This document shows positions 1,836 through 63,054 of a DNA stretch of 64,000 nucleotides, piece after piece. The DNA is taken from NCBI GenBank assembly GCA_005789565.1, contig SXXL01000006.1, positions 1-64,000 of the forward strand. Direction: 5' to 3'. The notes below the pieces were generated by a model. That model saw nothing but the letters and a program-made list of their open reading frames with translations, made no database searches and was not told the origin of the DNA. The translations under genes were made by a program, and so were the position numbers. The first letter of the stretch is position 1; each line of letters starts with the position of its first letter. Origin of the DNA: Bacteroidota bacterium (GTDB taxonomy: Bacteria > Bacteroidota > Bacteroidia > Chitinophagales > Chitinophagaceae).

Positions 1836-1873
1836 GGTGAAGGATGAAGGATGAAGGATGAAGGGTGAAGGGT
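1836..1873. repeat. Heptanucleotide tandem array, GATGAAG/GGTGAAG class
   Basis: GGTGAAG GATGAAG GATGAAG GATGAAG GGTGAAG GGT read directly. Confidence 0.85.
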
Positions 1874-13633: not shown

Positions 13634-14611
13634 ATGGCCCTCAAGAAAAAACCCACTCCGAAGAAAACCGCCAAACCGGTAGCCAAGGCCAAGCCTGTTG
13701 CCAAAAAGACTGCACCGAAGAATGCTGCCAAACCGGCGCCTAAGGTCAAGCCTGTTGCTAAAAAGCCTGCACCGAAGAATGCTGCTAAACCGGTGGTCAA
13801 GGCCAAGCCGGTTGCAAAAAAGCCTGAACCGAAGAAAGCGGCGAAACCTTTGGCCAAGGCTAAACCGGTGGCGGTAAAACCGGCTGCCAAAGCTCCGGTC
13901 AAGCCCGTCTCCAAACCGGTGGCGGTGAAACCAGCTGTTAAAGCCTCGGCCAAGCCTGTCGCTAAACCCGTCACTAAGTCAACAGCCAAACCCGCGGCGG
14001 TGGTCGCCAAGCCGGCGCCTGCCCCTGCCAAGCCTGTTGTTCCAGCTCCGAAACCGGTAGCCAAGAAAAATGATCCGGCCAGTTTGGTGTCCATCAAACC
14101 CAAGGCTCCGGTCGTGACAAAAAAAGAACCTCCTCGTCCGGCCAAAGTGGTGCTTCCCAAGCTCACCACTCGGAGTGCCGTTAAATACGAACCTGATTTT
14201 ACGCGTTCGGTGTTGGACTCGAAGCCCAGTTTGCCGGCGGGTCCCACCATGCGCTATTCCGATTCCGACCTCGCCGAGTTCCGCGAGATCATTTCCCGCA
14301 AGTTGGATGCGGCCAAGAAAGAGTTGGCGTACTTGCAGGGATTGATCACCCGCAAGGATGAGAGCGGCGATTTTGAAGATGCCCGGTATATGACCATGGA
14401 AGATGGCAGCGTAAGCATGGAGCGTGAGCAATTGGGACAGATGGCCAGCCGCCAGATCACCTTCATCGATCACCTCGAAAAGGCCCTGATGCGCATCGAA
14501 AATAAAACCTACGGGGTATGTCGGGTCACTGGTAAACTGATCGACAAGGCCCGCCTTCGCGCCGTTCCTCATGCCACCCTCAGTATTGAGGCGAAGCAGA
14601 TGCGGAAGTAA
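13634..14611 (+). CDS. DksA/TraR-family protein with long Lys/Pro/Ala-rich N-terminal tail
   Basis: About 180 aa of KPVAKAKPVAKKPAPK-like repeats followed by DLAEFREIISRKLDAAKKEL...RIENKTYGVCRVTGKLIDKARLRAVPHATLSIEAK. Confidence 0.8.
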   Translation: MALKKKPTPKKTAKPVAKAKPVAKKTAPKNAAKPAPKVKPVAKKPAPKNAAKPVVKAKPVAKKPEPKKAAKPLAKAKPVAVKPAAKAPVKPVSKPVAVKPAVKASAKPVAKPVTKSTAKPAAVVAKPAPAPAKPVVPAPKPVAKKNDPASLVSIKPKAPVVTKKEPPRPAKVVLPKLTTRSAVKYEPDFTRSVLDSKPSLPAGPTMRYSDSDLAEFREIISRKLDAAKKELAYLQGLITRKDESGDFEDARYMTMEDGSVSMEREQLGQMASRQITFIDHLEKALMRIENKTYGVCRVTGKLIDKARLRAVPHATLSIEAKQMRK

Positions 14612-18258: not shown

Positions 18259-18964
18259 TTTCCTTCACCGGATATTCGGATCGGCCGAGCAACGGATCTT
18301 CCGAAAGAACTTGCGCAACTTGTTGGGATTTCGTCCCCGTAACTTCTCCGTCTACGAACTGGCGCTGACCCATCGGTCGCTCAAAGAGCCGATCGACCAA
18401 AACAATGAGCGCCTTGAATTTTTAGGGGATGCGATCTTAAGTTCCCTCGTGGCCGAGTACCTGTTCAAACGCTATCCGTACAAGGAAGAAGGATTTTTAA
18501 CGGAGATGCGCAGCAAGATGGTGAACCGACAGCAGCTGAATGATATTGCATTGCGGATGGGACTGAACAAAATCGCCATCTTCAACCGATCTGATGGGGC
18601 CCTTCGCAACAGCCAGATCTTCGGGAATACCCTCGAGGCCCTGGTGGGGGCGATCTATCTCGATCAGGGTTATACGTACACCGACAAATGGGTGCTGCGT
18701 AACCTGATCCAGCCGCATTTATCGATGGACGACCTCGAGTCGATCGACCTCAACCTGAAAAACAAATTATACGGTTGGGTGAACCGACAAGGAAAAACGC
18801 TTGAATTCGTGACCCTGCATGAAAAACTGGAGCGTGGCCGTCGGCTCTTTACCATTGCCGCCGTCATCGATGGCGAACCCATCTCCGAAGGAAAAGGGTA
18901 TAATAAGAAGGATGCTTCCCACATCGCCGCGGAAGCGGCGATACATAAACTCGGGATAGAGTAG
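18245..18964 (+). CDS. rnc: Ribonuclease III
   Basis: NERLEFLGDAILSSLVAEYLF signature; C-terminal dsRBD GKGYNKKDASHIAAEAAIHKL; overlaps the fabF 3' end. Confidence 0.96.
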   Translation: MADHNFLHRIFGSAEQRIFRKNLRNLLGFRPRNFSVYELALTHRSLKEPIDQNNERLEFLGDAILSSLVAEYLFKRYPYKEEGFLTEMRSKMVNRQQLNDIALRMGLNKIAIFNRSDGALRNSQIFGNTLEALVGAIYLDQGYTYTDKWVLRNLIQPHLSMDDLESIDLNLKNKLYGWVNRQGKTLEFVTLHEKLERGRRLFTIAAVIDGEPISEGKGYNKKDASHIAAEAAIHKLGIE

Positions 18965-19046
18965 TTCGGAGTTCAGCGTTCGGAGTTCAGTGATGAGTTA
19001 TTCGTTTGAAGTCGGACTCCAAACTCCAAACTCCGAACTCCGAACT
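18964..19046. repeat. Heptanucleotide hairpin element, GTTCGGA class
   Basis: Left 18964-18991 GTTCGGA GTTCAGC GTTCGGA GTTCAGT; right 19016-19046 RC = GTTCGGA GTTCGGA GTTTGGA GTTTGGA GT. Confidence 0.9.
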
Positions 19047-19481: not shown

Positions 19482-19540
19482 ACTAATAACTAAAAACTAA
19501 TAACTATAACTCCGAACTCCGAACGCTGAACTCCGAACTA
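19482..19540. repeat. Heptanucleotide array, GTTCGGA class grading into GTTATTA
   Basis: Reverse strand: GTTCGGA GTTCAGC GTTCGGA GTTCGGA GTTATA GTTATTA GTTTTTA GTTATTA. Confidence 0.85.
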
Positions 19541-21736: not shown

Positions 21737-21774
21737 CAGTTTGAACAGTTTGAATAGTTTGAAAGTTTTTGAAG
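21737..21774. repeat. Nonanucleotide array CAGTTTGAA x2, TAGTTTGAA, AGTTTTTGAA
   Basis: Read directly in the iscU-iscA gap. Confidence 0.8.
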
Positions 21775-27119: not shown

Positions 27120-27129
27120 GGAACTATCA

Positions 27130-27183
27130 GTTCAGAGTTCAGAGTTCGGAGTTCGGAGTTCAGAGTTCGGAGTTCAGAGTTAG
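27130..27183. repeat. Heptanucleotide array, GTTCAGA/GTTCGGA class, seven full units
   Basis: GTTCAGA GTTCAGA GTTCGGA GTTCGGA GTTCAGA GTTCGGA GTTCAGA GTTAG. Confidence 0.95.
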
Positions 27184-28178: not shown

Positions 28179-28227
28179 GTCCGCAGTCCGCGGTCGGCCG
28201 TCAGCGGTCAGTGGACTGCGGTCAGTA
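28179..28227. repeat. Heptanucleotide array, GTCCGCN class, with internal inverted repeat
   Basis: GTCCGCA GTCCGCG GTCGGCC GTCAGCG GTCAGTG GACTGCG GTCAGTA; inverted CCGCAGTCC/GGACTGCGG. Confidence 0.88.
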
Positions 28228-28944: not shown

Positions 28945-28996
28945 AACTAAAAAACTATAAACTAACGACCCAAACTTCTCAAACTTCTCAAACTGG
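28945..28996. repeat. Degenerate array with 9-nt period (AAACTTCTC)
   Basis: AAACTTCTC AAACTTCTC AAACTGG preceded by TAACTAAAAAACTATAAACTAACG. Confidence 0.7.
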
Positions 28997-31712: not shown

Positions 31713-33245
31713 TTAGTTGTTCGACAATTGAGCGGTGAGCAACCCGATGCGCTGGATCGTTTCCTCTTTTCCGAGAATATCGGCGATGTCAAATACACCC
31801 GGACCAAACTTACCACCCACCAACATGATGCGAAGCGGTAACATCAACTCACCCGGCTTGATCGATCGTTCCGAAGCCAATGATTTGAACAACTCCTCCA
31901 ACTTCGCTGCCTGCCACTCGGTCTCCGAACCATACCTCGTTACTAATTCATGGAAAAAGGATGTTTTCTCCGCATTCCACTTTGGTTCAATCGCCGCCCG
32001 ATCCACCTCCTGCGGATATTCAAAGAAGTATCGCGTCTGCTCCACAAAATCCGTCAACAAATGACAACGATCCCGAACTAACGCAACTATCTTCTCCCAC
32101 TTCAAACTATTTAAACTACTCAAACTACTCAAACTTTCAAACTGACTCCGAACGCTGAACGCCAAACGCTGAACTGGCTCTCTCAAGAGCCACTCGTGGT
32201 TGAACCACTTCGCCTTCTCGTAATCAAACTTCGCCCCGGAACTATGCACCCGTTCCATCGAAAAGGCCTGTACCAGTTCTTCCAGTGAGAACAATTCCTT
32301 CTCGGTGCCGTCATTCCAACCCAGCAAAGCCAATAAGTTGATGAATGCTTCGGGCAGAAAACCGCGCTCCCGAAATCCCTCCACGTTTTCGCCGGTTTTG
32401 GGATCTGTCCAGTTCATGGCAAACACCGGAAAACCGTATTTGGCGCCGTCGCGTTTGCTGAGTTTTCCGTTTGGTCCCAGTATCAACGGCAGGTGCGCCC
32501 ACTCAGGCATGGCCGCTCGTCCGAATAATTTTTCCCAGAGCCGAACGTGTACGGGCGCGGATGGAAGCCACTCTTCTCCGCGAAACGCATGGGAGATCTG
32601 CATCAGGTGGTCATCGACCACCACGGCCAAATGATAGGTGGGCATGCCGTCGGCTTTCAAGAGGACTTTGTCATCCACCGTGCTCATATCAAACGATACC
32701 TCGCCGCGGATCATATCCGTAAAACCGATCATTCCGGTGCCGGGCATCAGGATCCGGATCACGTGGGGGGTGCCGGCTGACAATAACCGATCCACTTCCT
32801 CGGGGGAGAGGGTGAGGGAGTTGCGCATCCGAAGCCGAAGGGTATGATCGTATTGGGGAGCGGGATTTTGATCGGACTTGTACTGCTCGCGCATCGCTTC
32901 CAGTTCGGCGGGTGTGTCGAATGCATAGTAGGCATCGCCTTGGGCGATCAGCTTTTCGGCGTAATCGCGATAGAGTGGTTTGCGTTCGCTTTGGCGGTAG
33001 GGACCAAAATCGCCGCCATGCTGTACACTTTCATCGGGTTCCAGTCCGCACCAGCGCAAACAATCGAAGATGTATTCTTCGGCGCCGGGCACATAACGGC
33101 TTTGGTCGGTGTCTTCGATGCGGACTATGAAATCACCGCCGTGCTTCTTGGCAAATAGGTAGTTGTAGAGGACGGTCCGCACCCCACCCAGGTGAAGGCC
33201 GCCGGTGGGACTCGGCGCAAATCGGACGCGGACTTTTTTGGACAT
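31713..33245 (-). CDS. gltX: Glutamyl-tRNA synthetase
   Basis: VRVRFAPSPTGGLHLGGVRTVLYNYLFAKKHGG, GKLSKRDGAKYGFPVF; start at MSKKVRV. Confidence 0.96.
   Translation of the reverse strand: MSKKVRVRFAPSPTGGLHLGGVRTVLYNYLFAKKHGGDFIVRIEDTDQSRYVPGAEEYIFDCLRWCGLEPDESVQHGGDFGPYRQSERKPLYRDYAEKLIAQGDAYYAFDTPAELEAMREQYKSDQNPAPQYDHTLRLRMRNSLTLSPEEVDRLLSAGTPHVIRILMPGTGMIGFTDMIRGEVSFDMSTVDDKVLLKADGMPTYHLAVVVDDHLMQISHAFRGEEWLPSAPVHVRLWEKLFGRAAMPEWAHLPLILGPNGKLSKRDGAKYGFPVFAMNWTDPKTGENVEGFRERGFLPEAFINLLALLGWNDGTEKELFSLEELVQAFSMERVHSSGAKFDYEKAKWFNHEWLLREPVQRLAFSVRSQFESLSSLSSLNSLKWEKIVALVRDRCHLLTDFVEQTRYFFEYPQEVDRAAIEPKWNAEKTSFFHELVTRYGSETEWQAAKLEELFKSLASERSIKPGELMLPLRIMLVGGKFGPGVFDIADILGKEETIQRIGLLTAQLSNN
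32102..32174. repeat. Heptanucleotide plus nonanucleotide array lying inside gltX
   Basis: Reverse strand: GTTCAGC GTTTGGC GTTCAGC GTTCGGA then CAGTTTGAAAGTTTGAGTAGTTTGAGTAGTTTAAATAGTTTGAA; encodes VQRLAFSVRSQFESLSSLSSLNSLK. Confidence 0.88.
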
Positions 33246-33249
33246 GCCG

Positions 33250-33284
33250 CAAAGATAACCCATGGGAACAGGCGGTTATCTTTG
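33250..33284. promoter_or_regulatory. Symmetric divergent promoter pair (gltX minus / deacetylase plus)
   Basis: CAAAGATAACC (33250-33260) and GGTTATCTTTG (33274-33284) form a perfect 11-bp inverted repeat, each half containing TATCTTTG pointing outward. Confidence 0.6.
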
Positions 33285-58642: not shown

Positions 58643-58691
58643 GTCCGCCGTCCGCGGTCGGCCGTCGGCGGACAGTCGGCGAAGCGGACTA
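58643..58691. repeat. Heptanucleotide array, GTCCGCN class
   Basis: GTCCGCC GTCCGCG GTCGGCC GTCGGCG GACAGTC GGCGAAG CGGACTA. Confidence 0.85.
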
Positions 58692-63000: not shown

Positions 63001-63054
63001 AGTCCGCCGTCCGTCGTCCGCGGTCGGCCGTCGGCGGTCGGCGGTCGGCGGACT
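63001..63054. repeat. Heptanucleotide array, GTCCGCN class, palindromic ends AGTCCGCC...GGCGGACT
   Basis: GTCCGCC GTCCGTC GTCCGCG GTCGGCC GTCGGCG GTCGGCG GTCGGCG GACT. Confidence 0.93.

Follow-up and report, generated by a model that had tools for sequence, protein, structure and literature searches.

Heptad repeat DNA of intergenic type recurs in frame at one helix of glutamate--tRNA ligase in Chitinophagaceae

The window analyzed here, a 64,000-nucleotide stretch of contig SXXL01000006.1, comes from the 1.9-Mb draft MAG that is the source genome of this study (G000). It carries on its minus strand the gene for glutamate--tRNA ligase, gltX, whose product matched the TIGR00464 profile (gltX_bact, E 1.6e-135) and has homologues of solved structure (6b1z and 1j09). 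Two repeat arrays, one of 7-nt and one of 9-nt units, lie within this gene (Table 1) and make up a segment of ~25 residues overall. A sequence-only reading of the window had described a heptad and a nonad array in frame inside an essential gene, and both halves were indeed found in frame within an intact gltX ORF. That the arrays are an artefact of assembly or binning is hardly credible: the assembly is a repeat-containing draft of 86 contigs, but the window lies within one contig, the gltX reading frame is intact, and the independent genome G080, syntenic at ~80% identity, shows the nonad half in the corresponding position.

Table 1. Positions of gltX, its embedded arrays and other repeat arrays, in the window unless a locus of another sequence is given
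Feature	Position	Strand	Evidence and remarks
gltX CDS, glutamate--tRNA ligase	31713..33263	-	intact ORF; 516 aa from first ATG; MSKK start at 33245
Heptad part in gltX	32147..32174	-	GTTCAGC GTTTGGC GTTCAGC GTTCGGA; encodes VQRLAFSVRS, GltX residues 358-367
Nonad part in gltX	32102..32144	-	AGTTTGAGT-type units; encodes QFESLSSLSSLNSLK, loop between two helices
Intergenic nonad array before iscA-like gene, same family as gltX nonads	21737..21768	+	TRF; pattern match 21738-21762; G080 slot also nonads
Intergenic nonad array	28971..28994	-	TRF; CAAACTTCT on + strand; G080 slot has CAAACTATT-type nonads
Intergenic GTTCGGA/GTTCAGC heptad array	18964..18990	+	TRF and GTTYRGM pattern search
Intergenic heptad array, inverted relative to the 18964 array, ~25 nt beyond it	19016..19046	-	
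Intergenic heptad array	19508..19539	-	G080 slot holds AAACTCCC units instead
Longest intergenic GTTCRGA-dialect array of the window	27129..27181	+	TRF score 99
Intergenic heptad array, second dialect GAAGGRT	1838..1873	+	G080 slot holds GTTTAGG units
Intergenic heptad arrays, third dialect GTCCGCC/GTCGGCG	28179-28214, 58643-58671, 63002-63051		
In-CDS heptad array, PyrD (relative)	L256:10989-12071		
In-CDS heptad array, UvrA (relative)	L217:13729-16632		
In-CDS heptad array, adenine deaminase (relative)	L202:830-2542		
In-CDS heptad array, OTC-like enzyme (relative)	L207:9808-10797		
In-CDS heptad array, Lhr helicase (relative)	L141:4745-7318		
In-CDS heptad array, ABC-F protein (relative)	L151:11217-13211		

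Both halves of the segment match patterns that recur through the source genome. The heptad pattern GTTYRGM x3 + GTT had 42 matches in G000, including one at 32151-32174, and its reversed control had 0. By comparison, there was 1 match in the nearest relative, G080 (GltX 87% identical), and 0 in G098 (GltX 85% identical); 11 of the 13 other genomes of the genus had 0, and the relatives ranged from 0 to 5. Consistent with the earlier view that the motif is normally intergenic, 26 GTTYRGM arrays lay outside ORFs of at least 150 aa and 2 inside (gltX and leuS) in the stretches of G000 that were read. The nonad pattern, AGTTTRANN x3, matched 35 times in G000, including positions 32102-32135 of gltX, 12 times in G080 and not at all in 14 other genomes, although its reversed control was weak (15 matches in G000 and 7 in G080) because the reversed motif resembles itself. 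The nonad part of gltX is common to G080 and, in degenerate form, G098. AGTTTRANN also matched the array that precedes the iscA-like gene, in agreement with the proposal that it and the gltX nonads are one family. The iscA array had been read as encoding MNSLNSLK upstream of the true start, and it is in frame through a TTG codon, but its G080 counterpart has an in-frame TGA, which argues against a coding extension and makes the ATG the likelier start. Composites of heptads followed directly by nonads were also found between genes of G000 (C37 = L292:2003-2070 and C49 = L295:2043-2098), with order and strand as in gltX. Because the unit counts are genome-specific and the same composite occurs between genes, we conclude that the gltX segment is a genuine member of the G000 repeat family, not a look-alike.

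The arrays of related genomes differ in their units. Intergenic slots that are orthologous between G000 and G080 hold arrays in both genomes but with different units, so that the dialect changes while the place stays; the broad pattern RGTYNNR x4 likewise showed a dialect of its own in each genome. In most of the genomes sampled, lag 7 gave far more arrays than lags 4-6 or 8-13. Of the arrays counted across 2.28 Mb of sequence drawn from 18 genomes, 129 were outside ORFs and 27 lay well within ORFs of at least 200 aa, 2 of these 27 being gltX itself. An inverted partner was present within 150 nt of 46 of 166 arrays (28%), as compared to 5 in the control. Inverted heptad pairs were seen at L247:12603-12780, L248:2595-2733, L249:17906-18049 and L160:6779-6877, and several such pairs bracket a terminator-like hairpin between genes; they may act as hairpin elements or take part in ending transcripts. 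The window also holds long 51/57-nt tandem repeats at 13658-13968, which apparently code for a Lys/Ala/Pro-rich (histone H1-like) tail.

The sequence-only reading suggested that the element had simply inserted into gltX. Alignment of Chitinophagaceae orthologues does not bear this out: the segment is equal in length within ~1 aa, which rules out a simple insertion, and since the orthologues align through it without extra length, the array occupies an old helix-loop that was replaced or converted in place. This helix-loop is the least conserved stretch of GltX among close relatives, the lowest-identity windows of 480 all falling there. In an AlphaFold2 model (mean pLDDT 82), the heptad part is a helix (residues 358-369), the nonad part (370-379) is a mostly unordered loop except for residues 373-375, and the next helix spans residues 380-391. 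The expected location in a linker therefore holds for the nonad half, whereas the heptad half is predicted to be helical. Aligned with Thermus GluRS (1j09), the segment corresponds to a helical region beyond the WFN/WMN motif; we take this region to be the anticodon-side helical domain. A palindromic element at this site was ruled out, as no inverted partner of the gltX heptads was found within 150 nt (score 5).

Codon-level inspection of the same helix in other species revealed period-7 DNA with a variety of units, among them GTCGGGA, GTCGGTA, GTTTGAA/GTTTCAG, GTCTGAA/GTCAGAA, GTTGGAG and ATTACGA, as well as GTTACAG, GTATGAT, GTTGAAA and CGTTTCT. The lag-7 score in the linker was at least 10 in 18 of 104 distinct gltX genes and at least 8 in 23. 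At lags from 4 to 13 other than 7, no gene reached this level in the linker except for 3 at lag 9, and in the rest of gltX only 1 gene scored at least 10 at lag 7. When the synonymous codons were redrawn, an average of 0.5 genes, and 2 at most, scored at least 10, which rules out chance from codon bias. The same control bears on the proposal that no process acts at the DNA level, and that selection for an amphipathic V-x-x-L-x-x-x-V helix combined with biased codons mimics heptads. Conservation of the helix pattern does entail quasi-heptad codons, and the hydrophobic positions are common to array and non-array peptides; but redrawing the codons of the very same proteins abolishes the signal, the dialects are genome-specific and the nonad composite recurs between genes, so that we regard this explanation as very improbable. 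No distant orthologue was found to encode the same peptide with unrelated codons. Instead, the orthologues carry different peptides at the site, in keeping with the earlier suggestion that the repeat is tolerated in coding DNA and yields new protein sequence. One gene from another family, found in a class-level sample (L261 of G125), has a GCAAAGG heptad array in the GltX loop adjoining the helix, and the hotspot may extend beyond Chitinophagaceae.

The main rival to exchange with intergenic arrays is a single ancient array in the gltX of the family ancestor, followed by lineage-specific drift through substitution and decay. In the alignment, the starts of all gltX arrays fall within ~20 nt of one another, and the arrays share one codon register, as common descent would predict, and G098 has a degenerate array in that register (GTTGAGG GTTTAGC GATGAGG GTTGAGA), so that part of the pattern may be ancestral. 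On a gltX tree built without the linker, with a score of at least 8 as the array label (23 genes), the label was clustered: it required at least 14 state changes, of which well-supported branches force 5, versus a mean of 21 for shuffled labels. Drift should erode periodicity, yet units within a gene agree while those of sister genes differ. Outside the linker, the gltX genes L121 and L129 share 96% identity, but in the helix, where each is periodic with a unit of its own, only 30%; for L001 and L031, the two values are 89% and 20%. The GTTYRGM dialect of G000, moreover, is almost absent from G080 and G098, and gltX units match those of their own genome above expectation, as described below. 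It seems that the site has been rewritten repeatedly without breaking the protein, and an ancient array alone is an unlikely, if serious, explanation.

To compare gltX units with those of the surrounding genome, we used sets of array units that were enlarged for the permutation test, since those from 20-kb samples alone were too small. In 16 genomes, a share of 0.20 of the gltX 7-mers was found in the sampled arrays of the same genome, as compared to 0.063 in those of other genomes (p = 0.002, in a permutation test that takes no account of kinship between genomes). The own-array share was highest in G000 (0.71), G103 (0.65) and G083 (0.61) and was zero in several genomes. Similarly, AGTCGGG doublets occurred outside gltX in 5 of 6 genomes with an AGTCGGG gltX unit and in 4 of 28 others (Fisher p ~0.002). 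The match is partial, because the gltX unit was missing or rare in the sampled arrays of several genomes (G061, G086, G053 and G020). For the GTTTGAA-type arrays in gltX of G073 and G093, neither genome offers a clear donor, as the pattern AGTTTGAA x2 is nearly absent, with one match each in only 5 of 34 genomes. The match to the own genome thus favors exchange but does not prove it, relatedness between genomes being uncorrected.

The tolerance of such arrays in coding DNA can be understood from their period. Because 7 = 1 mod 3, a perfect heptad array encodes, whichever frame of a strand is read, an identical 7-residue period, and the three frames are either all open or all closed; on a given strand, ~69% of all heptads contain no stop. 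This 7-residue period is that of an amphipathic helix, and since a 7-nt unit reads as one such period in every frame, an array can be tolerated in the GltX helix. Selection would then keep the hydrophobic positions and remove stops and one-unit slippage. The constant length of the helix fits this expectation, because an array cannot change by a single unit and stay in frame. In nearly all array-bearing gltX genes, Leu replaces the Arg expected from a perfect GTCGGGA array, and GTTTGAA-type arrays carry changes that avoid TGA; both fit the leftovers expected of selection on the helix.

As the sequence-only reading anticipated, other coding genes carry arrays as well. In G000, a second in-frame GTTYRGM array, QFGVQRSEFGVGVGVDSL, lies in leuS (G000:C84:9778-12570 = L297:1179-3971; TIGR00396) just before the editing-domain motif YTTRPDT, where the protein is ~7 residues longer than Thermus LeuS. 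The sole GTTYRGM x3 match of G080 is at the same offset of its leuS. In relatives, in-ORF arrays were found in genes for dihydroorotate dehydrogenase (PyrD), an E2 acyltransferase (in its linker), adenine deaminase, an OTC-like enzyme, UvrA, an Lhr-type helicase and an ABC-F protein. Compared with solved homologues, those in PyrD (~17 aa), UvrA (~9 aa) and the OTC-like enzyme (4 aa) are true insertions, and the arrays of pyrD and lhr are inverted pairs inside the CDS. True insertions in these enzymes and in LeuS, together with the inverted pairs, some of them inside genes, are what would be expected if heptad hairpin elements, either short and mobile or template-copied, inserted repeatedly, with gltX length restored by compensating deletions. 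Against this, the GltX helix has kept a constant length across 23 array-bearing genes with many different units, and an unsystematic look turned up no target-site duplication, fixed ends or mobile enzyme. We consider repeated insertion into gltX quite improbable.

We therefore favor, at a probability of roughly 55%, in-place rewriting of the GltX helix, with intergenic arrays copied in through short template switching or gene conversion. The array is resident in gltX today, and from the comparisons above we infer that it was copied from elsewhere. Such rewriting, whether a short template switch or an ectopic conversion event, would happen now and then, with intergenic arrays as the source. Microhomology may guide copying into the helix, because codons for V-x-x-L-x-x-x-V already resemble heptads. 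The lack of an inverted partner at gltX, unlike 28% of all arrays, counts against this model, as does the fact that no donor tract extending beyond a few units was identified and no conversion was caught in progress. A broader proposition, to which we give somewhat less than even odds, is that a process in Chitinophagaceae homogenizes heptad arrays genome-wide to the dialect of the lineage and also converts the quasi-heptad GltX helix and sites in LeuS and other enzymes, providing essential enzymes with a steady supply of new, frame-safe helices.

The nearest known precedents are Rickettsia palindromic elements, TAACTGA repeats with their in-ORF case, G-rich heptads and PARCELs. Rickettsia palindromic elements are palindromic inserts of 105-146 bp (Ogata et al. 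2000; reviewed in PMC2229807). Like the gltX array, they are a repeat family found both between genes and, tolerated, in frame in conserved protein genes. In contrast, the gltX segment is a period-7/period-9 array and an equal-length replacement that recurs at one helix family-wide. The lengthened host protein typical of these elements is absent in GltX but present in PyrD, UvrA and LeuS, and their palindrome or long stem-loop is absent at gltX, although inverted partners are found among the arrays generally. TAACTGA repeats of Beggiatoaceae and some Bacteroidetes are intergenic 7-nt tandem arrays, with one reported inside an ORF, at a variable part of an RNA polymerase beta-prime-like gene (PMC4679880), and G-rich heptads are known from Xanthomonas and Nostoc (PMC4692102). 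These, like cyanobacterial STRRs, resemble the present arrays, which have the marks of bacterial heptanucleotide tandem repeats: their 7-nt units exceed expectation, they are mostly intergenic, and the gltX segment has the unit of its own genome (GTTCAGC/GTTCGGA and AGTTTGANN, not TAACTGA). Unlike the known bacterial heptads, the units here vary among the species of a single genus, many arrays are paired in inverted orientation, and 23 of 104 gltX genes show periodicity, with a range of units, at the same helix of an essential enzyme. The domains known as PARCELs (PMC2996958) are tandem protein repeats of 25 residues; they occur in ORFs without assigned function, many of them with membrane-targeting sequences. 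Both they and the gltX array are repeat coding sequence that yields amphipathic protein segments and spreads within genomes, but gltX has a 7-nt array in a housekeeping enzyme and no 25-residue repeat. In the open-access papers searched, we found no report of heptad arrays rewriting a core-enzyme helix in Bacteroidota, which is not proof of novelty.

If this reading is correct, short tandem repeats of bacteria are not just intergenic filler or phase switches, but can give core enzymes ready-made helix sequence that is independent of reading frame. It would also account for odd, species-specific peptides in conserved proteins, such as VQRLAFS, SGVGSLESGV and TNYELR, which might otherwise be mistaken for adaptive changes or sequencing errors. 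The GltX helix, a single site with many species and units, is a natural record in which the spread of heptads and the change of their dialects are directly testable.
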